Below are positions 1 through 43,265 of a stretch of DNA of 64,000 nucleotides, piece by piece. The notes under the pieces were generated by a model, which did no database searches, was not told where the DNA came from, and saw only the letters and a list, made by a program, of their open reading frames with translations. The stretch lies in NCBI RefSeq assembly GCF_014217545.1, contig NZ_CP043178.1, positions 248,001 through 312,000 of the forward strand, written 5' to 3'. How positions within the stretch are numbered: position 1 is the stretch's first letter; each line of letters begins with the position of its first letter. The DNA is from Pseudarthrobacter sp. NBSH8 (GTDB lineage: Bacteria > Actinomycetota > Actinomycetes > Actinomycetales > Micrococcaceae). Both the position numbers and the translations under genes were made by a program.

Positions 1-2
1 CG

Positions 3-326
3 CTGCGGATGGTGGTGTGTGTGGCGGAGCGGGCCGCAGCCAGCGCTCAGCTGGCGGTAGCCCAAAGCTCAACGGTGCTTATGGACCTGGCTGTGAGCAC
101 GCTTGAATCCGATTACGGGCTCGGCCATGATGCGGCCCTGCAGTACCTCCGGACCGTCGCACGGCACACCCGCCACGGGCTTCGCGAGACAGCTCTGAAT
201 ATTGTGGCTGCCTCGCGCTCCGACCAGGCAGGTCGCGGCCGTGACAACGCCTCCGTCCTGGGACTCGCTGACCTCGAAACACCCGCGCTCCGCCAGGGCC
301 ACTACAAAACAGGGAGTACGGCATGA
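3..326 (+). CDS. ANTAR-domain protein, C-terminal part (5' end outside the window)
   Basis: The reading frame is already open at the window edge, so the N-terminus, possibly a GAF or PAS sensor domain, is missing. The visible part has an Ala-rich, probably coiled-coil stretch followed by an ANTAR-like helical bundle: hydrophobic spacing VLMDLA, then ALQYLRTVARHT and LRETALNIVAAS. ANTAR domains bind paired RNA hairpins and prevent transcription termination. The stop codon overlaps the ATG of the next gene (ATGA), so translation is probably coupled to the SGNH hydrolase. The canonical QAKG-type segment is degenerate here, which keeps the call moderate. A plain coiled-coil regulator is the alternative. 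Confidence 0.55.
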   Translation: MRMVVCVAERAAASAQLAVAQSSTVLMDLAVSTLESDYGLGHDAALQYLRTVARHTRHGLRETALNIVAASRSDQAGRGRDNASVLGLADLETPALRQGHYKTGSTA

Positions 327-33567: not shown

Positions 33568-34450
33568 GCCCGGGCGCCTTGGCGTCGGAATCATCGGTGC
33601 CGGGAAAGTGGGTGCCGTCCTTGGTGCGGCGTTGCGCTCGGCCGAGCACGCCGTCGTCGGGGTTTCCGCGGTGTCAGAGGCCAGCCGTGAGCGCGCGGAG
33701 ACGCTGCTGCCGGGCGTGCCCATCCTGGAGATCCAGGAGATTGTGGAACGGTCCCAACTGGTGCTCCTCGCCGTGCCGGACGATGCCCTCGCCGGGCTGG
33801 TGAACGGCCTCGCCAAACTCGGGGCGTGGCAGCCCGGCCAGATCGTGGCGCACACCTCAGGCAGGTTCGGCGTGGGGGTGCTCCGCCCGGTGCGTGCCGC
33901 CGGAGCCATTCCCTTGGCAATGCACCCCGCCATGACGTTCACGGGCATGAGCCTGGATTTGACGCGCCTGCTGGACTGCACGTTCGGCGTCACGGCGGAC
34001 GCCGCGATGCTGCCCATTGCGCAGGCACTGGTCGTTGAGATGGGCGCCGAGCCCGTGGCCATCGCCGAGGGGGACCGGACCCTTTACCACGCGGCCCTGG
34101 CCCATGGCTCGAACCATATGGTCACCCTGGTGGCGCAGGCTTCCCAGCTGCTCCGCGACGTTGGCGTGGACGCGCCGGAGCGGATGCTGGGGCCCTTGCT
34201 GCGGGCCACGCTGGAGAACGCGCTCGCCTCCGGGGAATCTGCGCTGACCGGGCCGGTGGCCCGAGGTGACGTCGGGACAGTGGCGGCCCACGCTGAGGCG
34301 CTGCGGGAGTACGACGCCGGCGCGCAGGGCGATGTGCTGGAGGCTTACCTCGCCATGGCCCGCGCCACAGCACGGCGGGCAAGCAGCCGGGGGCTGCTCA
34401 AAGCGGATCAAGTGGGGGCCATCCGCGCGGCCCTGGAAGAGGAGAACTGA
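33560..34450 (+). CDS. DUF2520 Rossmann-fold protein (predicted oxidoreductase)
   Basis: A Rossmann fold with the dinucleotide-binding loop [17 protein letters not shown] at residues 8-24, followed by [14 protein letters not shown] and [18 protein letters not shown]. The helical C-terminal half (DUF2520) resembles the dimerisation domain of 6-phosphogluconate dehydrogenase-like enzymes. 296 residues from the GTG at 33560, which has GGAAGG upstream. Its neighbour panC belongs to pantothenate synthesis, and this family is often found beside panC, so it may catalyse or support an associated NAD(P)-dependent step; this is inference from context. Confidence 0.8.
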
Positions 34451-34451
34451 C

Positions 34452-35378
34452 ATGGCCACGCAACTGGTGACAACTGCCGCAGAGCTCCGCGAAGCGAGCG
34501 CCCGGCTGCTCGCGCAGAAAGCGGGCACATCCCAGGGCCTCGTGCCCACCATGGGCGCGCTGCACGAAGGGCACGCCCGCCTGGCGCGGACCGCCGTCGA
34601 ACAGAACGACGTAGTGGTGGCGTCTATTTTTGTGAACCCGCTGCAGTTCGGCGATGCGGTGGATTTGGACCGGTACCCGCGGACCCTTGACGCCGATCGT
34701 GCCCTGCTGGAAGAACAGGGCGTGGACCTCGTGTTTGCGCCGCCGGTGGAAGAGGTCTATCCCGGCGGCGAGCCGCTGGTGCGTGTGACTGCCGGCTCCC
34801 TAGGGGAGAAATGGGAAGGCGCCTCACGGCCGGGACATTTCGACGGCGCCCTCACAGTAATTGCCAAACTGCTGCACTACGGCATCCCCGGCTCCGGGCT
34901 TCCGCCTGCCGGTGCTTTTGCTTCCGGCGGCGGGGGGCTGCCTGCCTACCGGGCTTACTTCGGGCAAAAGGATGCCCAGCAGCTGGCTCTCGTGCGACGG
35001 ATGGTGGCGGACCTGAACTTCCCGGTCGAAATTGTTGCCGTTCCCACGGTCCGGTCCGAGGACGGGCTGGCCCTCTCAAGCCGCAACCGGTTCCTATCAG
35101 ACGAGGAACGGGAAGCCGCCCTGGTGTTGTCGCGGGCGCTGCGGCTCCTGGCGGAGCGGGCGGACGCCCACCAGCCGCTTGATCTGGAATCCGCCCAGGC
35201 TTTGGTGGAATCCCAGCCATTGGTCGGACTGGATTATTTCGACGTAGTGGATCCCGGCACCCTTGAGCCTTTGGCCGAAAACTGCCGGAAAGTCCCGTTC
35301 CGTGGCGAGGGCCTGGCGATCATCGCGGCCAAGGTGGGGCCTGTCCGGCTGATCGATAACGTGCCGCTCAGCAGCTGA
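34452..35378 (+). CDS. panC: Pantothenate synthetase (pantoate-beta-alanine ligase)
   Basis: Condenses pantoate and beta-alanine using ATP. Core segments are [16 protein letters not shown] (with the HxGH signature), IFVNPLQFG, the RYPRTLDAD block and the late [13 protein letters not shown]. Between HYGIPG and [13 protein letters not shown] there is a roughly 16-residue Gly/Pro/Ala-rich insertion that replaces the usual short turn before YFGQKD. 308 residues, a little longer than typical because of this. The previous gene's stop is one base upstream of its ATG, so it closes the ftsH-fol-panC run. Confidence 0.95.
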
Positions 35379-35384
35379 CATGTT

Positions 35385-35402
35385 GCGCCCGGCTCCGGGC
35401 GC
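35385..35402 (+). terminator. Hairpin after panC
   Basis: GCGCCC at 35385-35390 pairs with GGGCGC at 35397-35402 across the loop GGCTCC. It follows the panC stop by seven bases. No T-run is present, so it is a weak candidate terminator that separates the pantothenate run from the small-gene cluster. Confidence 0.45.
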
Positions 35403-35668
35403 GTAAGGCCTCGGGTCTCTGTTCGTCTTTCCGCGTAGGGGCTATGCTGAAATTGTTGCCCCAGACCCTGGCATCGCCCTATTCGGCGTACTCCAGGAGG
35501 AACCGTTCCACGCAGGGCACCCCACACATCCTCTGCAGTTAGCCCCGGCCTTTTGTGTTGCCCGGCTTCTGTCTGTCCAGCGCAGCCGCATGCACGGCCA
35601 GCGGGACGTCCACCTGCATTCCCCATTCACGTGGCCGACCGGCCACGCTCAAATCAGGAGCAAATCCA
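35403..35668 (+). promoter_or_regulatory. Long leader upstream of the small-protein and ANTAR cluster
   Basis: This 266-base stretch precedes the 35669 gene. TATGCT near 35437 is a possible -10. An ATG just after it opens a 32-codon frame ending near the TAG at about 35540, without a proper ribosome-binding site. CGTGGCC at 35630-35636 pairs with GGCCACG at 35641-35647 around a four-base loop, ending nine bases before the AGGAG of the next gene. The region is not protein-like. Its hairpin and proximity to RNA-binding ANTAR genes suggest transcript-level control, but no classic paired ANTAR-target hairpins with hexaloops are obvious. Confidence 0.4.
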
Positions 35669-35890
35669 ATGATCCGCACAATAGATGACGGGTTGTCCTA
35701 TCTCGTCAAAGTGAATGACGCGTCCGTCCTGGACGAATATTTGAATTCGGCCGTTGACCTGGCCCGCCAGTACGCCTCCAGCATTGCCCTGTGCGGGATT
35801 CTGGTAACCCGCCACGCGCACGACACCTATACCGTAGCGGTCAGCGAGGCTGTACCTTTCGGAGAGACCCATGAGCGCCACGATCCCTAA
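35669..35890 (+). CDS. Small hypothetical protein, 73 residues
   Basis: The product starts MIRTIDDGLSYLVKVNDASV. It looks like a compact alpha/beta protein with two helices (LDEYLNSAVDLARQYA) and beta strands (ALCGILVTRH, TYTVAVSEA), no signal peptide and no membrane segment. AGGAG lies eight bases before the ATG at 35669. The last 20 bases overlap the next gene, so the two are coupled. Some Arthrobacter proteins of this shape accompany GAF-ANTAR genes; I cannot assign a family. Confidence 0.65.
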   Translation: MIRTIDDGLSYLVKVNDASVLDEYLNSAVDLARQYASSIALCGILVTRHAHDTYTVAVSEAVPFGETHERHDP

Positions 35891-36128
35891 GGTGGAGGCC
35901 GTGTTGTCCTATGATCTTTATGCTGACAGAATCACACCGATCGGATGGCAGGCGTACGAAATCATCACGTCCATCCTGGAGGACCCGTCGCCGGATCTGG
36001 ACCAGCACAAATGGCGCCTTCGCAGGTGTGTGGCCGCCCACCCGGGCGCACCGGAACGGGCGCTGCAGGCCCATCTGATGGCCACCTCAGAAGTGGTAAA
36101 TGGCTACAGCCAGGAAGGGCCGGCCTGA
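35871..36128 (+). CDS. Small hypothetical protein, 85 residues, with the RLRRCVA-PERAL motif
   Basis: A helix-rich soluble protein. Residues 25-70 run WQAYEIITSILEDPSP then RLRRCVAAHPGAPERAL and LM. The protein at 37755-38036 matches this segment without gaps (about 25 of 46 identical by eye), so the two are paralogues. The core has an invariant Cys in LRRCVA and a PGxPERAL turn. A ribosome-binding GGAGAG precedes the ATG. It overlaps the previous gene by 20 bases and shares its transcript. No known family is recognised; a regulatory or adaptor role beside the GAF-ANTAR pair is inference. Confidence 0.7.
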   Translation: MSATIPKVEAVLSYDLYADRITPIGWQAYEIITSILEDPSPDLDQHKWRLRRCVAAHPGAPERALQAHLMATSEVVNGYSQEGPA

Positions 36129-36138
36129 GGCCCTGTCA

Positions 36139-36169
36139 TTGACGATCGTCGGGTTCGCGGCAATATGTA
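36139..36169 (+). promoter_or_regulatory. Putative promoter of the GAF-ANTAR pair
   Basis: TTGACG at 36139-36144 is a good -35 box. The AT-rich AATATGTAT at 36162-36170 supplies a -10 at 17-19 base spacing, although no perfect TANNNT falls at 17. It lies about 85 bases before the first GAF-ANTAR ATG, inside the gap after the small paralogue, and would allow independent expression. Confidence 0.45.
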
Positions 36170-36253
36170 TCCTTGAGGTGACAACTCCGCCGTTCCGGTT
36201 CAGACTGCAGCCGAATCTTTACCGCGGGATGATTCAGGGATCAGAGGCTCACC

Positions 36254-36949
36254 ATGGACATTGCACCCGATATGGTTGCCGGTGACCAGAACGTGTGTGC
36301 TCCATATCTGGAGAAGCTGCCCATAACGGGTGCCGCGGTGTCGCTCTTCGGCGGAGCCGCCGCGGAGACCCTGGTCTCCGCCAGCGACGAACTCGCCTCC
36401 CGCCTGGATGAACTGCAGTTCAATCTCGGCGAAGGCCCGCGGTGGCGGGCCCACAAGACCCGCTTGCCCGTGCTGGTCCCCGACGCACAATCCACCGCCG
36501 ACGACGAATGGCCCATGTTCCGGCAGGCGATCGCAGGGACGGACGCAGCCGCGCTGTTCGTTTTTCCACTCACAGTGGGCGCGATGGACCTCGGTGTCGT
36601 TGAGCTATATCACGCCGTTAGTGGAAACCTGAACCGGTCGGACCAGTCGATGGCGGCCGTACTTGCCAGGGGGACATCGTGGTACCTCCTGCGCAAGATT
36701 CTGAGCCTCAGCTCACCGGATACGGATCCAGTTCTGGAGCCGGCGCTTACGTCGCGCCGCGAGATTCACCAGGCCACCGGGATGGTCCTGGCGCAGTCTG
36801 GTGCTACGGCAGCGGAATCCTTGCTTTTGTTGCGTGCCTACGCTTTTGCAAATGACTTCACGTTGGGGGAGACAGCCGCCGCTGTGCTCGAAAGAAGGCT
36901 CAGCTTCGACACCGACAAGGGTAGGGCCGGCGGCCCTGCCCTGCAGTAA
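36254..36949 (+). CDS. GAF-ANTAR regulator 1
   Basis: The N-terminal about 150 residues fit a GAF-like sensor (TGAAVSLFGGAAAETLVSASDELA, LDELQFNLGEGP, LFVFPLTVGAMDLGVVELYH). The C-terminal ANTAR bundle reads REIHQATGMVLAQSGATAAESLLLLRAYAFANDFTLGETAAAVLE, with the QATGMVL helix in the place of QAKGxL. The ANTAR domain should bind dual-hairpin RNA and prevent termination; the GAF domain may respond to a small molecule or redox signal, as in GAF-ANTAR proteins of mycobacteria. 231 residues, no membrane segment. It is followed nine bases later by a second one. Confidence 0.9.
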   Translation: MDIAPDMVAGDQNVCAPYLEKLPITGAAVSLFGGAAAETLVSASDELASRLDELQFNLGEGPRWRAHKTRLPVLVPDAQSTADDEWPMFRQAIAGTDAAALFVFPLTVGAMDLGVVELYHAVSGNLNRSDQSMAAVLARGTSWYLLRKILSLSSPDTDPVLEPALTSRREIHQATGMVLAQSGATAAESLLLLRAYAFANDFTLGETAAAVLERRLSFDTDKGRAGGPALQ

Positions 36950-36958
36950 AATAGGGCC

Positions 36959-37684
36959 ATGGTAACCAGTACCCGCGCCGAGCGCGCCAGTGCGGCGTTC
37001 GTCAAGCTCACTGACACCCTGGTGGCCGATTACGACGTCGTGGATCTACTGCACACACTCGTGGAGGAGTCGGTGGGCCTTCTTGACGTCGCGGCCGCTG
37101 GTCTGTTGCTTGCCGATCCCAGCGGAGAACTGCAGGTTGTCGCCTCCACCAGCGAGCAGAGTCAACTGGTCGAGGTGCTCCAGCTGCAAGCCGGAGCCGG
37201 TCCGTGCGTAGAGTGCTATCTGACCGGGGCGGCAGTTGCCGTGGACGACATCGCCGGGCTTACCAAGTGGCTGGGCTTCCGCCAAGCCGCGCTGTCGCAG
37301 GGCTTCCGCTCCGTTCATGCAGTGCCCATGCGCATTCACGGCAGGATTATCGGAGCCATGGGTCTGTTTGGCGCCCGGGAGGGTTCCCTGCCCGCAGAGG
37401 ATGCCGCGATCGGCCAGGCCCTTGCCGACGTCGCCACCATCAGCCTGATGCAGGAACGCACCATCCGGGAAGCGGCACTGGTCAACGAGCAGCTCCAGCT
37501 GGCACTGAACACCCGTGTGCTGATTGAGCAGGCGAAAGGCGTCATTGCCCATACGGCCGGGGTGGACATGGACGCAGCGTTCAACCTGCTGCGGAGCCAT
37601 GCACGCGCCAACAGCCAGAGCCTGCATGCGACCGCCGGACGCATTGTGGACCGCAGCCTCACGTTGCAAGGCCGGCCGCTCTAA
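36959..37684 (+). CDS. GAF-ANTAR regulator 2
   Basis: The N-terminal GAF domain (DYDVVDLLHTLVEESVGLLDVAAAGLLLADPSGELQVVASTS, GAGPCVECYLTGAAV with paired Cys) is followed by a helix linker and the ANTAR domain: RVLIEQAKGVIAHTAGVDMDAAFNLLRSHARANSQSL with a canonical QAKGVI. 241 residues. The product matches GAF-ANTAR proteins better than its upstream neighbour does. The close spacing and shared orientation imply one transcript with 36254-36949 and possibly joint or hetero-oligomeric action; the two are only modestly similar. Confidence 0.93.
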   Translation: MVTSTRAERASAAFVKLTDTLVADYDVVDLLHTLVEESVGLLDVAAAGLLLADPSGELQVVASTSEQSQLVEVLQLQAGAGPCVECYLTGAAVAVDDIAGLTKWLGFRQAALSQGFRSVHAVPMRIHGRIIGAMGLFGAREGSLPAEDAAIGQALADVATISLMQERTIREAALVNEQLQLALNTRVLIEQAKGVIAHTAGVDMDAAFNLLRSHARANSQSLHATAGRIVDRSLTLQGRPL

Positions 37685-37754
37685 GCCTTTCTACTGCGGG
37701 TGCCTCATGCTGAATCGCGGGCGGGCGCACATTGCGGCGCAGGAGCGTGTTGCT

Positions 37755-38036
37755 CTACTGCGTTGATTCACCCTGCGGGTAGCGGTTGATCATCAGCTGC
37801 TGCAGGAGTGCGCGCTCGGGTTTGCCGGGATTCTGGGCGACGCAACGGCGGAGCCTGGCCCGGGCAAGTTCCTCGCCGGGGGATGTTCCGCGGAGCACTT
37901 CATCAATGATTTCCTGCGCCTGCCACCGCAGGGATTCCCGGGCGAAGTAACGGACCTCGGCGGACGCAGCCGTACTTTCTATCCACGGGTCAGTGTCGGC
38001 ACACGGGATGAAATCGAACGTTCGCTCTGCTGACAT
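37755..38036 (-). CDS. Small hypothetical protein, 93 residues, paralogue of 35871-36128
   Basis: A soluble helix-rich protein. Residues after FARESLRWQAQEIIDEVLRG match the other small gene: SP, then RLRRCVAQNPGKPERAL and LM. A strong ribosome-binding site AAGGAGG stands five bases before the ATG at 38036, favouring it over the codon at 38063. It faces the GAF-ANTAR pair from the other side, so the pair sits between the two paralogues. The invariant Cys, PGxPERAL and basic LRR segment suggest a nucleic-acid or partner-protein contact, but this is not shown. Confidence 0.7.
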   Translation of the reverse strand: MSAERTFDFIPCADTDPWIESTAASAEVRYFARESLRWQAQEIIDEVLRGTSPGEELARARLRRCVAQNPGKPERALLQQLMINRYPQGESTQ

Positions 38037-38124
38037 CGGGGCCTCCTTGCACCAAGCCGACAAGGCCTTTTGAGGGTCCCGTCAGCGTCATAGCACTGCG
38101 TTGGGAAAAACATTACAGCGAGTA

Positions 38125-38154
38125 AGACTGGTCTGTCTGCACCTGGAGTAAACT
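38125..38154 (+). promoter_or_regulatory. Putative promoter and operator of the TetR gene
   Basis: TAAACT at 38149-38154 is a -10 candidate nine bases before the ATG of the TetR gene, so the transcript may be leaderless. At 38125-38134 the sequence AGACTGGTCT is an inverted repeat (AGAC / GTCT) placed over the -35 region, the usual place for autorepression by a TetR protein. No ribosome-binding site is seen. Confidence 0.45.
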
Positions 38155-38163
38155 ATTCCTACG

Positions 38164-38796
38164 ATGATTTTCGATGCAGACCACGCTGCAGAGCCCGCCC
38201 TGTCTCCTGCGGATTTACCCGCCGAGGCGGCAGTTGTTCCTGCCGATTCCCGGGGCCGGATCCTGGCTGTGGCTTATGAACTGTTTTCCCGCCGTGGGGT
38301 GCGGGACGTAGGCGTTAACGAACTGATCGAACGTTCCGGCGTGGCCAAGGCAACGTTTTACCGGCACTTCCCGTCCAAGGACGCGCTCGTCCTGGCGTTC
38401 CTGGAGCAGCGGGACCAGCTATGGACAGTTGATTCCATCGTCGGCCAGGCCAAACTGCGCGGCACAACCCCCGCCGAACAACTGCTGGCTATCTTCGACG
38501 TCTTCGGCGACTGGTTCCTCCGCGACGACTTCGAAGCCTGCTCCTTCATCAACGTCCTGCTGGAAATGGGCCCGGCCCATCCGCTCGGCCAGGCCAGCAT
38601 CGATTACCTGGCCAGGATCAGGGGCCACGTGCAGGCCCTCGCGGAGCAGGCCGGGTTGGACCGCCCGGAGGATTTCGCCCGGTCCTGGCACATCCTCATG
38701 AAGGGGTCCATCGTCTCAGCCACCGAAGGCGACACCCAGGCGGCGAAGCGGGCCCAGCAGATGGCCAGCTGGCTGATCGAGCACCACCGCAGCTGA
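38164..38796 (+). CDS. TetR/AcrR-family transcriptional regulator
   Basis: 210 residues. The N-terminal HTH (residues 24-70) reads RILAVAYELFSRRGVRDVGVNELIERSGVAKATFYRHFPSKDALV, with AKATFYRHF the recognition helix. The C-terminal ligand domain is all-helical. It shares orientation with the MFS exporter downstream, so it probably represses it and itself. Ligand unknown. Confidence 0.93.
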   Translation: MIFDADHAAEPALSPADLPAEAAVVPADSRGRILAVAYELFSRRGVRDVGVNELIERSGVAKATFYRHFPSKDALVLAFLEQRDQLWTVDSIVGQAKLRGTTPAEQLLAIFDVFGDWFLRDDFEACSFINVLLEMGPAHPLGQASIDYLARIRGHVQALAEQAGLDRPEDFARSWHILMKGSIVSATEGDTQAAKRAQQMASWLIEHHRS

Positions 38797-38971
38797 CAAC
38801 CGGCCCTCCCGCGCGAATGGCCACTTAAGCCCCGCCCACGAATACTCCGTTCCTCGACGCCGAGCGCCGGATAGCAAGGAATCAGCAGGAGTTCAGTTAA
38901 TCCGGCCGGGCCCCGAGGCAGCATGCTGGATCAAAGCCCGTGCCGAAGAATAAACCTGTGTCCCGGAATTA

Positions 38972-38987
38972 GTCCGGACGGTAGAGT
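38972..38987 (+). promoter_or_regulatory. Putative promoter and palindrome before the MFS gene
   Basis: GTCCGGAC at 38972-38979 is a perfect 8-base palindrome, next to a wider CCGGA and TCCGG pair starting at 38963. The possible -10 TAGAGT lies at 38982-38987, about 62 bases before the MFS start. It could be an operator, but it does not match the AGACTGGTCT site of the TetR gene. Confidence 0.35.
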
Positions 38988-39049
38988 GTTGGAATCTGCA
39001 GCGACGATGCTCGCGAGCCACTTCATTCTTACTCCCTGAGGGAACACCC

Positions 39050-40519
39050 ATGTCTACAGAAGTCTCTTCGAACGCCGCCGGGCAGCCCGGGCCAGTAGCG
39101 GCGGCGCTGTCCGCCGCGCCGGAGAAGATGTCCCGCGAATCGGTGACCATCATCGCCACCCTGCTCGTGGCGACCTTTGTGGTGATCCTGAACGAGACCA
39201 TCATGAATGTGGCCCTGCAGCGGCTGATGGTTGACCTGCGTGTGGACGCGCCCACCGTGCAATGGCTCTCCACCGGTTTTATGCTCACCATGGCGGTGGT
39301 CATCCCCACCACCGGGTTCATCCTCCAAAGCCTGTCCACGCGGGCCGTCTTTATGCTGGCCATGGGTCTGTTCGCCGGCGGCACCGCCGTGGCGGCGGTG
39401 GCTCCCGGTTTTGAGATCCTGCTCCTGGCCCGCATCGTCCAGGCCGGCGGCACCGCCATCATGCTTCCGTTGCTGATGACCACCATCCTCACCCTTGTCC
39501 CGCTGGCCAAGCGCGGCGCCGTCATGGGCAACGTCAGTATCGCCATCTCAGTGGCGCCGGCCATGGGTCCCACTGTCTCCGGGCTGATCCTGGAGCATTT
39601 CGCCTGGCGCTTTATGTTCGTTTTTGTCCTGCCGGTCGCCCTGGCCGCGCTGGCCATCGGCCACAAGTACCTGACGAACGTGGGGGAAACCGAGAAGACC
39701 AAGCTCGATTTCCTCTCCGTACTCCTCACGGTTCCTGCCTTCGGTGGCTTGGTGTATGGCCTCAGCCAGATCGGCGGCGGCCAAAGCGGTCCGAGCACCA
39801 TGGCCATCGCCGCCCTGGTAATAGGCGTCGCCAGCCTGACGGTCTTTGTGCTCCGCCAGCTCCGGCTGCAGAAGTCCGAAGCCCCGCTGCTGGATCTCCG
39901 CGCCTTCAACTTCAGGATGTTCACGGTTTCCGTGCTGCTGATGGTGGTGGCCATGATGGCGCTCTTCGGCGGCGTGATCCTGCTCCCGCTTTACCTGCAG
40001 GAAATCCGCGGCCTGGGCTCGCTGGAGACGGGTCTCGCGCTGCTTCCGGGTGGCCTGGCGATGGGCCTGCTGGGCCCGTTTATCGGCCGGCTGTTCGACC
40101 AAGTGGGCCCGCTGCCGCTCACCGTTACCGGTTCCGTGCTGATGGTGCTGGCCTTGTGGCAGTTTTCAATGCTCGACGCCGGCACTCCGGTCTGGTGGAT
40201 CATCACCCTCCACGTGGGGCTCAGTTTCGGCCTGGCGCTGCTGTTCACGCCGGCATTTACCACCGGCCTGAACCCGCTGCCGCCGCATCTTTACTCTCAC
40301 GGCTCGGCGATCATGAGCACCGCACAGCAGGTAGCCGGTGCCGCCGGAACGGCGCTGCTGGTGTCCATCTTTGCCGTGGTCTCGGCCGCGTCGGGGCTCG
40401 TTGCCGGCATGAGTGCAGCGTTCCTGACGGCAACCGTGATAGCCCTTGCCGCCGTCGTACTCTCTGCGATGATGCGGAAAACAGGCGGCGCCGTCCCGGG
40501 GCACGGCGCCGGCCACTAA
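39050..40519 (+). CDS. MFS exporter, DHA2 (EmrB/QacA) type
   Basis: Fourteen-helix drug:proton antiporter type, 489 residues. Helix 1 begins ESVTIIATLLVATFVVILNETIMNVALQRL, a typical motif D-like segment of DHA2 members (conserved NETIMNVAL), followed by QWLSTGFMLTMAVVIPTTGFI. Motif A-like and antiporter motif C regions follow. Substrates are usually hydrophobic cations or drugs; the natural one here is unknown. It lies about 250 bases after the TetR gene, which is likely its local regulator. Repeat copy C lies just after its stop. Confidence 0.92.
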   Translation: MSTEVSSNAAGQPGPVAAALSAAPEKMSRESVTIIATLLVATFVVILNETIMNVALQRLMVDLRVDAPTVQWLSTGFMLTMAVVIPTTGFILQSLSTRAVFMLAMGLFAGGTAVAAVAPGFEILLLARIVQAGGTAIMLPLLMTTILTLVPLAKRGAVMGNVSIAISVAPAMGPTVSGLILEHFAWRFMFVFVLPVALAALAIGHKYLTNVGETEKTKLDFLSVLLTVPAFGGLVYGLSQIGGGQSGPSTMAIAALVIGVASLTVFVLRQLRLQKSEAPLLDLRAFNFRMFTVSVLLMVVAMMALFGGVILLPLYLQEIRGLGSLETGLALLPGGLAMGLLGPFIGRLFDQVGPLPLTVTGSVLMVLALWQFSMLDAGTPVWWIITLHVGLSFGLALLFTPAFTTGLNPLPPHLYSHGSAIMSTAQQVAGAAGTALLVSIFAVVSAASGLVAGMSAAFLTATVIALAAVVLSAMMRKTGGAVPGHGAGH

Positions 40520-40606: not shown

Positions 40607-41443
40607 TCAGCTGGCGAAGAAGTCGCTCAGCTCGGTGATGAGCTTGTCCGGTGCACGGAGGACGCCGTCGTGGCCGGCTCCCGGCAGGATGGTGTAGCTG
40701 GAGCCGGACAGGACATCATGGATCTGGCCGCAGGCAACACCGAAGTACGCAGGGCTCTTCTCGCCCACAATAATCAGCGTTTCCAGGGGCAGCTCCAGGA
40801 ACGGCTCGGCCGGCATGTCCGCTGCGATGATGGCCTTGATTTCCCGGACGCCGGTGCGCATCAGTTCACGCTGCTGCTTTCCTTCGGAAGTGCCCGCGGT
40901 GAGTTTGTTGGCCAAGGTCAGCATGGACAGTGGCATGCGGGATGAAAACGCTCCGCCCGCCTCAAGCCCGCGCTGCAGTACGGCCAAGGCGCGGTCGTCG
41001 TCCCCGGCGGCCGTGGCCCGTTCGTATTCGGCAGTCCAGTCGGCCTTCACGCTGTGGTTCACGGACACGGCGGGGTCATACACAGCCAGCCGCTCCACCG
41101 GAAGGGTCCGGGCCGCGTGCAGGGCCACCGCGCCGCCGAAGCTGTGCCCAAAAACGTCCGTGCTGGACGTGTGTTTCATCACGGCATCCAGGTCCCGCAC
41201 GTCCCCGTCCAGCGTGTAATCGTCGGCCTGCGGCGAGGAAGATCCGCGGCCGCGGCGGTTGAACGTGTGCACGGGGCGGCCCAACGCGGTGCTGAGTTTC
41301 TGGGCGAACTTTGTGTAGTCGGCCGCGGTCACCATGGAAGCCGGGACCACAACCACGCCGGAACCGGCGGAGGCCAGTTCAGCACCCGTGGAGAAGAGCT
41401 CCAGCGTGCCGCCGTCGGGGGTCTTGATGTTCTCGCTCGTCAT
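40607..41443 (-). CDS. Alpha/beta hydrolase 1 of a tandem trio
   Basis: 278 residues with the fold's hallmarks: HTFNRRGRGSS (strand and turn before the cap), nucleophile elbow FGHSFGGAVAL, and the late LIVVGEKSPAY and ILPGAGHDGVL segments that supply Asp/Glu and His. Family enzymes hydrolyse esters, amides or C-C bonds; no substrate is known. It is the last of three same-strand hydrolases (genes at 41478-42374 and 42381-43265); the three share overall order and the NRRGRG or DRRGRG turn and are paralogues. Its start lies about 35 bases from the next gene's stop. Confidence 0.88.
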   Translation of the reverse strand: MTSENIKTPDGGTLELFSTGAELASAGSGVVVVPASMVTAADYTKFAQKLSTALGRPVHTFNRRGRGSSSPQADDYTLDGDVRDLDAVMKHTSSTDVFGHSFGGAVALHAARTLPVERLAVYDPAVSVNHSVKADWTAEYERATAAGDDDRALAVLQRGLEAGGAFSSRMPLSMLTLANKLTAGTSEGKQQRELMRTGVREIKAIIAADMPAEPFLELPLETLIIVGEKSPAYFGVACGQIHDVLSGSSYTILPGAGHDGVLRAPDKLITELSDFFAS

Positions 41444-41477
41444 GATCCGAGCCTAGCCGAGCAACCTGCGGAAAGCC

Positions 41478-42374
41478 TCAGCCCTTGAAGTATTCAGCGA
41501 TGTCAGCGACAAGTTCCTTAACTGCGGCCGGAATGGAGCCATGGAAGCCCTTGGGTGAGAGCTCGAAGGTGCTCCCCGGGACGGCCGCGTGAAGGCGCTG
41601 GGCCGTGACCTTGTAGTAGCTCGGGCTCTTGCCGCCCACCATAAAGTGCGTGTTGGCGGGCAGTACGGCGAAGTTCCTTGCATGCTCGGCTTCGCCGTAC
41701 GCGGCCCGCAGTTCGCCCACGCCGGTTGGCATCAGCTCCCGGAGCATCTTGTTCACTTTGGTGCGCGACACCACAGCCATCAGCCCCGCAAGGACAGGCT
41801 CGGGGACCTTCGAGAGCGCAGTGCCCGGCTGCATGCCCTTTTTCATTCGGGCCATGGCATGCCCCACCCGGCCGGCGTTCACCGCGGCCTCGAACTCGTC
41901 CAGCCAGGACATGTCGATGCTGCCGTCGATGTTGACCGCGGCGTCGTAGACCGCCAGTTTGTGCGGTTCGTATGAGGTGCCTACGAACTCCTGGACGGCG
42001 TTCAGCGCCACCGATCCGCCCAGGCTGTGGCCCAGGACGTTGCGGGCACCCGTTGCATCCATGACCGTGCGGACATCGGCAATTTCCGTGGCCATGGAAT
42101 AATCCGCCGGCTGCTCGGTGGAGTTGCCCCGCCCGCGCCGGTCGTAGACGTCCACTGCCCACCCGTCGCCCAGCCCGTCGGCCAAAGCCATCGAGAACGG
42201 CCGGTAGATCAGGGCCGTGAGGAAGGCCCCTCCGATGACCACCACACGGCGTTCTCCCGGCGCATCCTCGGTTCCGTAGCTGTACAAAGCCAGCCTGCCG
42301 CCGTCGTGCGTGGGGACTTCCTGTGCTCTCACGCTCCCCATCCTAGGCGCGCGGCAAAGGCTCCGCACCGGCAA
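41478..42374 (-). CDS. Alpha/beta hydrolase 2 of a tandem trio
   Basis: About 287-298 residues depending on the start; no strong ribosome-binding site stands before either. The nucleophile elbow is LGHSLGGSVAL and the turn VYDRRGRGNSTEQPADYS matches the neighbours. The late segment FMVGGKSPSYYKVTAQRLH and the HG near the C-terminus supply the remaining catalytic positions. It is nearest to paralogue 1. The tight spacing (about 6 bases to hydrolase 3 upstream) suggests an operon. Confidence 0.87.
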   Translation of the reverse strand: MPVRSLCRAPRMGSVRAQEVPTHDGGRLALYSYGTEDAPGERRVVVIGGAFLTALIYRPFSMALADGLGDGWAVDVYDRRGRGNSTEQPADYSMATEIADVRTVMDATGARNVLGHSLGGSVALNAVQEFVGTSYEPHKLAVYDAAVNIDGSIDMSWLDEFEAAVNAGRVGHAMARMKKGMQPGTALSKVPEPVLAGLMAVVSRTKVNKMLRELMPTGVGELRAAYGEAEHARNFAVLPANTHFMVGGKSPSYYKVTAQRLHAAVPGSTFELSPKGFHGSIPAAVKELVADIAEYFKG

Positions 42375-42380
42375 GGCGAC

Positions 42381-43265
42381 CTACCGGCGCCTCCCCAGCG
42401 TCCGGGCCTGGCCGTCGCTGCCGTTGATGAACCGGGCAATCCGCACGGCCAGGCCCTTGCCGGGTCGGATGGGTCCCTCATGCAGCTGGCCGGGGACCAC
42501 CTGGAAGGTGATCGATGGCACCGCGGCGGCCAGTTGGCGGCCGGTCTCGGCAAAATACGCCGGACTCCAGCCGCCGCTGAGCATCAGGACGGGCGTGGTG
42601 AGGGCGGTGAAATTCTCCAGTTCGGCGTCGGCGTCCAGTACTGCCCGCATTTCGGTGACGGCCGTGGGCAGCAGCTGGCGCATTTCCGCGCCCAGATTGG
42701 TTTTGGCGGAGAGAATGCTCAGCATCCGCAGCGCGCCGAGAGGCAGGTAGGACAGGGGGCCGGCCGTAGCCAGGCCCTGGACCAGGTGCGCCCAGGCATG
42801 GTTAAGCTGGCCTGCGGTGACGGCGTCCTCAAGCTCCGGCCGCCAGCGGTGGCTCAGGTTTCCGGACAGCGACACCGCGGCGTCATAGGTCACCAGCCGG
42901 CCCACGGGCAGGGTCCGGGCCGCCTGCAGCGCTACGAAACCGCCGTAGCTGTGGGCCACCACGTCCGTGGAACCGGTCTCGCGCATGACCGCCGCAAGGT
43001 CGCTGACCTCCGTTTTCACCGAATAGTCCTCCGGCTGCGGGGCGGACCCCGCCCTGCCGCGGCGGTTGTAGCAGTGCACCGGCCGGCCCAGCAGGACGCT
43101 GAGCTTCCGGGCAAAAGGCCGGTAGAGGGCGTCGGTGACCAAAGTGCCGTGGATGAGTACGACGCCGGGAGGTCCCGCCATCGTCGGGTCCAGTCCTGCG
43201 GGGGTGCGGAAGGAATGGACGTCGAGGCGCCCGCCGTCCTCCGCTTCAACTTTCCAAGTCTCCAC
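42381..43265 (-). CDS. Alpha/beta hydrolase 3 of a tandem trio
   Basis: 294 residues. The nucleophile elbow reads VAHSYGGFVAL, so the residue before His is Ala rather than the usual Gly, and the fourth is Tyr; the catalytic Ser and both Gly are kept. NRRGRAGSAPQPEDYS corresponds to the trio's shared turn. MLSGGWSPAYFAETGRQL and the late QLHEG supply the acid and His positions. It is first in the trio and is divergent from lysS, about 67 bases away. Confidence 0.87.
   Translation of the reverse strand: METWKVEAEDGGRLDVHSFRTPAGLDPTMAGPPGVVLIHGTLVTDALYRPFARKLSVLLGRPVHCYNRRGRAGSAPQPEDYSVKTEVSDLAAVMRETGSTDVVAHSYGGFVALQAARTLPVGRLVTYDAAVSLSGNLSHRWRPELEDAVTAGQLNHAWAHLVQGLATAGPLSYLPLGALRMLSILSAKTNLGAEMRQLLPTAVTEMRAVLDADAELENFTALTTPVLMLSGGWSPAYFAETGRQLAAAVPSITFQVVPGQLHEGPIRPGKGLAVRIARFINGSDGQARTLGRRR

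Follow-up and report, generated by a model that had tools for sequence, protein, structure and literature searches.

We examined a 64,000-nucleotide stretch of the Pseudarthrobacter sp. NBSH8 genome (positions 248001-312000 of a single-contig genome of 4.06 Mb; hereafter the window), with a focus on two tandem genes for GAF-ANTAR regulators and on a short leader element (LE) that lies ahead of the small genes preceding them. The gene order is panC, X73, S1, ANTAR1 and ANTAR2, followed by S2 in the opposite direction and a TetR-family gene, with X73 and S1 overlapping by 20 bases (Table 1). A preliminary description of this locus had presented S1 and S2 as paralogues enclosing two GAF-ANTAR regulators, with a third small protein starting at 35669, and the open frames bear this out. 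BLASTP aligned S1 with S2 at 28 identical residues of 58 (E 1e-15, single comparison), and 25 of 45 positions of the ungapped core are identical when counted from the translations. By the Pfam cut-offs both enclosed proteins belong to the GAF-ANTAR group, ANTAR2 clearly (ANTAR 53.3 bits and GAF_2 56.1 bits, both above cut-offs) and ANTAR1 weakly (ANTAR 28.6 bits against a cut-off of 27.3; GAF_2 26.2 bits, below the cut-off of 28.6). All five genes are apparently real because orthologues keep open frames and the ratio of nonsynonymous to synonymous substitution (dN/dS) is below 1 in every pair tested (X73, 0.06-0.31, and S1, 0.36-0.70, five pairs each; S2, 0.11-0.25, ANTAR1, 0.12-0.28, and ANTAR2, 0.03-0.10, four pairs each). 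The gene caller used placed some starts too far downstream.

Table 1. Genes and sequence features at the locus, in window coordinates
Feature	Position	Strand	Basis
panC	34452-35378		PF02569
Candidate promoter, TGTTCG-17 bases-TATGCT, 6 bases before LE	35420..35448	+	read from sequence
Leader element LE: GTTGCCCCAGACCCTGGCA, hairpin, CCAGGAGG	35455..35500	+	alignment, covariance model
X73, 73-residue protein, predicted E-E-H-E-E-E	35669..35890	+	open frame
S1, 85-residue S-family protein	35871..36128	+	open frame, BLASTP against S2
Conserved block between S1 and ANTAR1	36170..36213	+	alignment
ANTAR1, GAF-ANTAR protein with weak domain scores	36254..36949	+	Pfam
ANTAR2, GAF-ANTAR protein with clear domains	36959..37684	+	Pfam
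S2, 93-residue S-family protein, outside the ANTAR cassette	37755..38036	-	open frame
Palindromic site AGACTGGTCTGTCT, likely TetR operator, between S2 and the TetR gene	38125..38138	not applicable	
TetR-family regulator, divergent from S2	38164..38796	+	Pfam

A leader element linked to tandem GAF-ANTAR genes

LE was found by aligning the regions upstream of X73, as a block downstream of the TATGCT box, where the X73-S1 transcript is predicted to begin. A close relative of ANTAR1 (at least 72% identity; in two pieces in G030) occurs in 11 of 101 genomes of the genus, in each case with S1 upstream and S2 downstream. In eleven more genomes a tandem pair that has diverged (48-62% to ANTAR1) lies at other sites, and the same LE block is present at all 11. 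The pattern TTGCCCYRGACCYYGGYA matched 22 times in 20 of the 101 genomes and its reversed form once, and a covariance model gave 26 matches of at least 38 bits in 24 genomes, the next match scoring 29.6 bits. Twenty of these 26 strong matches are the model's own rows and six are new; the LE counts for the genus rest on matches of at least 38 bits. In the genus sample, LE is present in 22 of 22 genomes that have a tandem pair and in 2 of the 79 that lack one (Fisher P 3e-20, for genomes that are related). Seven genomes whose ANTAR1 matches are all distant (E 1e-15 to 1e-17) are counted as pair-less. The informative part of this comparison is the rarity of LE elsewhere, since LE was first seen at pair loci. 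The two pair-less genomes with LE each hold traces of ANTAR genes beside it, an ANTAR2 relative in two frames in G024 and a 22-residue ANTAR remnant in G010. In G004 (L053), S1 is kept, the pair is gone and what remains of LE is degraded, with four mismatches.

LE is kept while its strand relative to the pair and the identity of the next gene change, and the cassette and diverged loci have no gene cluster in common except ANTAR and X73. It stands directly before X73 in L050, L051 and L247 and directly before S1 in L060 and L062, with an inserted base in the LE of L061. In the window, X73 starts about 170 bases after LE, behind a second hairpin. At other loci LE precedes a 130-190-residue protein (L236-L242, L278), for which no Pfam family scored above cut-off in the four members tested, or a fatty acid desaturase gene (L243-L246, L280; tested with Pfam in L243 and L280), and L244 has a second LE ahead of a 42-residue frame. 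An extra LE in G022 leads a desaturase gene with no ANTAR gene within 6 kb; the LE of L348 (strain MI7-26) resembles this case, and the pair of that strain lies on another contig (L360). The comparison of hairpin and promoter box drew on 80 of the 116 loci listed for the named genome collection described below, less L312, L332, L333, L348 and L371. A TANNNT box near the LE spacing is present at 19 of 20 loci of the Arthrobacter group and at 4 of 56 unlinked matches. We are confident of the link between the pair and LE in this genus, and moderately so that the link is functional. As a separate observation, the LE-led small protein of the diverged class (L236-L242, L278) carries the signature WRDxLLAEIEDL...KVARY...ALEDIAATALGIE.

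Outside the genus, an exact scan of a named genome collection with a near-identical pattern of 14 fixed bases, which turns up by chance in many phyla, returned at least 116 loci, and ANTAR domains occur at 24 of 116 among the matches listed. The share is 10 of 16 listed loci in Arthrobacter, Pseudarthrobacter, Paenarthrobacter and Specibacter, and 14 of 100 in other genera, against about 2 expected even at the ANTAR density of Arthrobacter (2.7 per Mb). These 14 loci come from three Acidimicrobiia bins, Actinoplanes, Winogradskya, Trebonia, Humibacillus, Flexivirga, Serinicoccus, Microbacterium, a Microbacteriaceae bin, Cryobacterium and two Mycobacterium bins. The nearest ANTAR domain lies less than 1 kb away in 11 of them, 1.7 and 1.9 kb away in L334 and L421 and 5.4 kb away in L339, and LE points away from the ANTAR genes in nine. 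Two same-strand ANTAR domains are found at 19 of the 24 listed ANTAR-linked loci, the first being the weaker in 18 of the 19, as in the window, and the distant pairs L317 and L376 each comprise one weak and one clear GAF-ANTAR protein by Pfam. The frames following LE encode a WhiB protein in L317 (in L313 just below cut-off), a STAS protein in L316 and ANTAR-domain proteins in L325 and L327; in L312 a protein kinase gene follows LE and the locus has no ANTAR gene. A role in stress is suggested by the placement of LE before desaturase, WhiB and STAS genes.

The S family and the divergent S2-TetR unit

The likeness of S1 and S2 reflects homology rather than chance, because S2 alone retrieves relatives in 96 of the 101 genus genomes. 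The two proteins fall in separate, non-sister clades (support 99/98 and 99/97; tree on 53 columns), which rules out a local tandem duplication as the origin of the two genes. A profile of 40 S sequences matched in 31 of 245 genomes sampled from the taxonomic family (4 of 32 genera), two of them with weak matches only, in one genus; across the phylum it matched in 3 of 296 genomes, the third marginally (E 1e-3). The S core of about 50 residues is predicted to form three helices, and it occurs stand-alone or as the N-terminus of an EAL protein. Pfam assigned no family at E 1 to X73, S1 or S2, and NCBIfam had none for S and matched X73 only far below cut-off. A fold model of S (predicted local distance difference test, pLDDT, 82) had no PDB structure match at E 0.001, and the best match of the S sequence to PDB had E 0.31. 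The possibility that S is an ANTAR relative was rejected (hhalign probability 2.2% over 16 columns).

Relatives of X73 are present in all 101 genus genomes, with 1 to 11 matches each. The family shows the signature GILVTRH..YTVAVS..VPFGxT and is without a Pfam name. Its model (pLDDT 86) had no PDB structure match at E 0.001; the best, at E 0.26, was the BLUF protein BlsA, followed by TMEM16, and these were not used. In L248, a member of the X73 family lies just upstream of an S-EAL gene.

The preliminary description had named a position mostly far from ANTAR genes as evidence against its module, and the S family at large shows this position. The count covered 40 other stand-alone S loci, hand-picked among the matches listed and with small open frames only, and at six of them an ANTAR gene lies no more than about 6 kb away (1.3 expected from ANTAR density, P 0.002). 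Five of the six are one syntenic place, and by independent places, in our own grouping, the count is 2 of about 13 (P 0.07), which is not notable. An ANTAR gene lies 1 kb from S in L254. No ANTAR gene lies near any of eight S-EAL loci, the nearest in L043 being 8 kb off, and S is found within about 5 kb of 0 of the 11 diverged pairs (L236-L246), three of which have X73. Consistent co-occurrence with ANTAR genes is seen only in the S1 clade (11 of 12 loci), and the neighbourhood counts rule out S as a general ANTAR co-factor.

S2 goes with the TetR gene. Among 22 orthologous S2 loci selected from the best S2 matches (the window, L045-L064 and L247), S2 is retained at all 22 and the ANTAR pair is present at 11 (with broken frames in L045), while L047 holds a single ANTAR remnant and 10 loci have no ANTAR gene. 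At 20 of 21 of the orthologous loci, all but L045, the gene calls include a divergent TetR gene, and in a second neighbourhood of seven loci a TetR gene 73-80% identical to it is again divergent beside an S gene. The S-TetR intergenic sequence AGACNNGTCTGTCT is exact in 24 of 27 pairs from these two unrelated neighbourhoods; L101 and L092 have one or two mismatches, and the stretch for L064 does not cover the site. In 25 genomes the palindrome pattern matched 34 times, compared to four for the reversed pattern. Sixteen of the 34 matches adjoin an orthologue of the TetR gene (judged by position in G030; in G012 with an S-EAL gene alongside). Another four are next to TetR genes 36-38% identical to it, and the remainder lie elsewhere or within genes. 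Apparent second operator sites in L166, L168, L169 and L172 were set aside, as they lie inside a called gene.

TetR-regulated divergent gene pairs carry a palindromic site between the TetR gene and its target. The arrangement here is alike in its conserved palindrome between divergent TetR and target genes, to which TetR binding is putative, and differs in that the target belongs to the S family, which has no name in Pfam or NCBIfam. S2 is most likely under TetR control, given the divergent TetR gene that is kept and the conserved palindrome between the genes, and we are confident that S2 is separate from the ANTAR unit. The local regulatory module proposed in the preliminary description is supported around the pair, with S1 in 11 of 11 cassettes and a candidate site before X73-S1, and does not extend to S2.

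An S-EAL protein is encoded in this genome at 239 kb, and all 93 matches to a search with the S-EAL N-terminus carry PF00563. In S-EAL (G000 239012-239182, L043:9136-10266), DDSHP replaces the DDFG of the aligned structures and IKLG replaces IK(x)D, so that the protein is possibly a weak or inactive phosphodiesterase as judged from these residues. Its gene adjoins a GGDEF-EAL-like frame and a histidine-kinase-like frame, recognized by eye. Eighteen of the 40 stand-alone S loci have an McrBC-type gene convergent with S (PF10117, tested in L078): L076, L078, L079, L084-L087, L089, L091-L093, L096-L098, L100, L101, L103 and L104. A Vsr-like gene is also present in 11 of these.

RNA fold or DNA site

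In the consensus fold of LE, hairpin 1 pairs 35457-35460 with 35470-35473 (UGCC/GGYA) around a 9-base loop (CCRGACCYY), and hairpin 2 pairs 35475-35478 with 35485-35488 around a variable loop. An alternative stem, 35467-35471 with 35493-35497, covers the CCAGG of the ribosome site. In an alignment of 20 of the 22 elements (omitting L243 and L059), hairpin 1 is paired in 100% of its 80 cells, hairpin 2 in 87.5% and the stem over CCAGG in 86%. The pairing of hairpin 1 is of little information, because three of its four pairs never vary. In L243-L246 CCTGG/CCAGG becomes CCTCG/CGAGG, in a shifted register that falls outside the 86% scoring.

Published ANTAR targets are paired hexaloops with A1 and G4, and those of actinobacteria frequently extend over the ribosome site (PMC8164766, PMC8934654); section 6 of PMC8164766 also presents species that possess ANTAR proteins but for which no RNA was predicted. 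The locus resembles EutV antitermination, with its dual hexaloop RNA, in having ANTAR proteins, a leader before the regulated gene and proposed mutually exclusive RNA folds (PMC8934654). In contrast to EutV, the ANTAR proteins here have a GAF rather than a receiver domain and come as two tandem proteins, one of them weak, and neither A1/G4 hexaloops nor a leader terminator were found with LE. A terminator scan of 35380-38200 gave one match, inside ANTAR1, with 1.7 expected. The actinobacterial ANTAR-target RNAs of PMC8164766 likewise have Arthrobacter among their hosts and a proposed control of translation; they needed two stems with hexanucleotide loops, whereas the first loop of LE is 9 bases long and 18 of its bases form a near-constant sequence. 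LE is not classed as a canonical ANTAR-target RNA, since two A1/G4 hexaloop hairpins were not found in it, and by analogy it could work in a manner like the canonical targets. A scan for A1/G4 hairpin pairs found none at 34000-40000 and seven in the whole window, and Rfam gave no match at gathering score in the window, the best at 35380-36260 having E 1.8. Among the records listed, literature matches to 12-letter forms of the LE motif concerned only hepatitis B virus, grape, gentian and haemophilia, and those on ANTAR with Arthrobacter, small proteins or GAF held no such leader.

We are inclined, by a modest measure, to read LE as a non-canonical target of the tandem GAF-ANTAR pair, with the cassette as one unit (LE, X73, S1, ANTAR1 and ANTAR2, inserted between panC and S2) and S2 with its divergent TetR regulator as a second. 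Both GAF-ANTAR proteins would act jointly on LE in the leader of the neighbouring transcript, whose 5' end may be near G35455. In one state the UGCC-GGCA pairing of hairpin 1 would form beside hairpin 2, and in the other CCUGG would pair with the downstream CCAGG, which overlaps the Shine-Dalgarno sequence. Signal-bound GAF-ANTAR protein might then stabilize the two-hairpin state and switch expression of the next gene, with X73 and S1 as the presumed output here and a desaturase, another small protein, WhiB or STAS proteins elsewhere. The observations themselves are the linkage, the conservation, the order of the genes and the palindrome; the binding of LE by ANTAR proteins, its binding as RNA and the direction of control are what we infer, and we hold this mechanism with less confidence than the link between pair and LE. 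The RNA reading is kept mainly because the partner belongs to an RNA-binding protein family and LE lies at the predicted transcript start. A wider proposal, that LE is a new class of ANTAR-recognized RNA, read by a weak and an intact GAF-ANTAR protein across the Actinobacteria, with unrelated targets and a two-fold switch over the ribosome site, is tentative and falls short of an even chance in our judgment. Many actinobacteria have several ANTAR proteins without assigned targets, and LE is a short, searchable candidate target tied to one type of pair; if true, the range of possible ANTAR-target forms would be widened.

Several observations weigh against this reading. One pair of hairpin 2 is changed on both sides in three sequences, and likewise in 247 of 500 shuffles; LE folds no more stably than shuffled sequence (z -1.9 to +1.0, 20 elements), and outside the Arthrobacter set hairpin 2 does not exceed the unlinked control (P 0.13). 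With folding and covariation close to shuffles, the support for an RNA structure is weak, and LE could instead be a DNA site close to where transcription starts. LE has no A1/G4 hexaloop. In the window and in L045, L046, L048 and L059, the 20 bases after the Shine-Dalgarno sequence hold no start codon, so that the translation step is unworkable as drawn at these loci. Of 13 further ANTAR-linked loci, 11 of them outside the Arthrobacter group and the other two L336 and L379, only 5 show a promoter box, and a consensus scan of 35380-38200 gave no sigma-70 promoter. In the fetched DNA around the LE of L280 and L348 there is no ANTAR gene, and a target in trans is possible at these places (L280:5993, before the desaturase gene, and L348:2453-2497). 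Finally, eight relatives of ANTAR1 on plasmids were examined (8 of 51 records), and seven of these are tandem pairs by the ANTAR profile. None of the eight loci holds an exact LE; one copy with two mismatches and four with three were found, where 1.3 would be expected in all. The two-mismatch LE, in L428, lies in the region divergent from the pair.

The weak folding and the lack of an A1/G4 hexaloop suit an explanation in which LE serves as an operator in the DNA where transcription starts, bound by another regulator or read by a special sigma factor, and the pair is co-inherited and acts elsewhere. The conserved 18-mer with its inverted repeat TGCC/GGCA also fits this explanation, as does a distance to TANNNT that hardly varies in 19 of 20 loci. 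However, cassette and diverged loci share no gene cluster beyond ANTAR and X73, and ANTAR is an RNA-binding domain (PMC8934654), and we consider an operator rather doubtful. Direct binding of S1 and S2 to ANTAR1 and ANTAR2 or to their RNA, with a modulating effect as the preliminary description had suggested, appears very improbable. It could draw on the position of S1 beside the pair in all 11 cassettes and on the fusion of S to the N-terminus of EAL, by which S may be a module of signalling proteins. However, S2 persists at 10 of 22 loci that have no ANTAR gene and at one more that holds a remnant, S is near none of the 11 diverged pairs, and most other S genes lack ANTAR neighbours. These data lend the modulator claim no support and fit small proteins that are a regulated output rather than regulators.

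An explanation compatible with the leader model is that stand-alone S pairs with the S domain of S-EAL and shifts cyclic di-GMP signalling, the TetR and ANTAR regulators setting S levels. In its favour are the presence of S in 96 of the 101 genus genomes, the S-EAL protein of this genome and the constant PF00563 of its relatives. However, EAL activity is uncertain because of the changed loop (DDSHP where aligned structures have DDFG), and we consider this hypothetical pairing unlikely.

Further features of the window

The block at 36170-36213, between S1 and ANTAR1, is strongly conserved and was matched in cassette-class loci only, among the loci scanned. Two more ANTAR genes lie at window positions 1-323 and at G000 319630-319788, about 8 kb past the window end. 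Beyond a major facilitator superfamily (MFS) transporter gene (39050-40519), three successive alpha/beta hydrolase genes (PF12697) all lie on the minus strand at 40607-43265.

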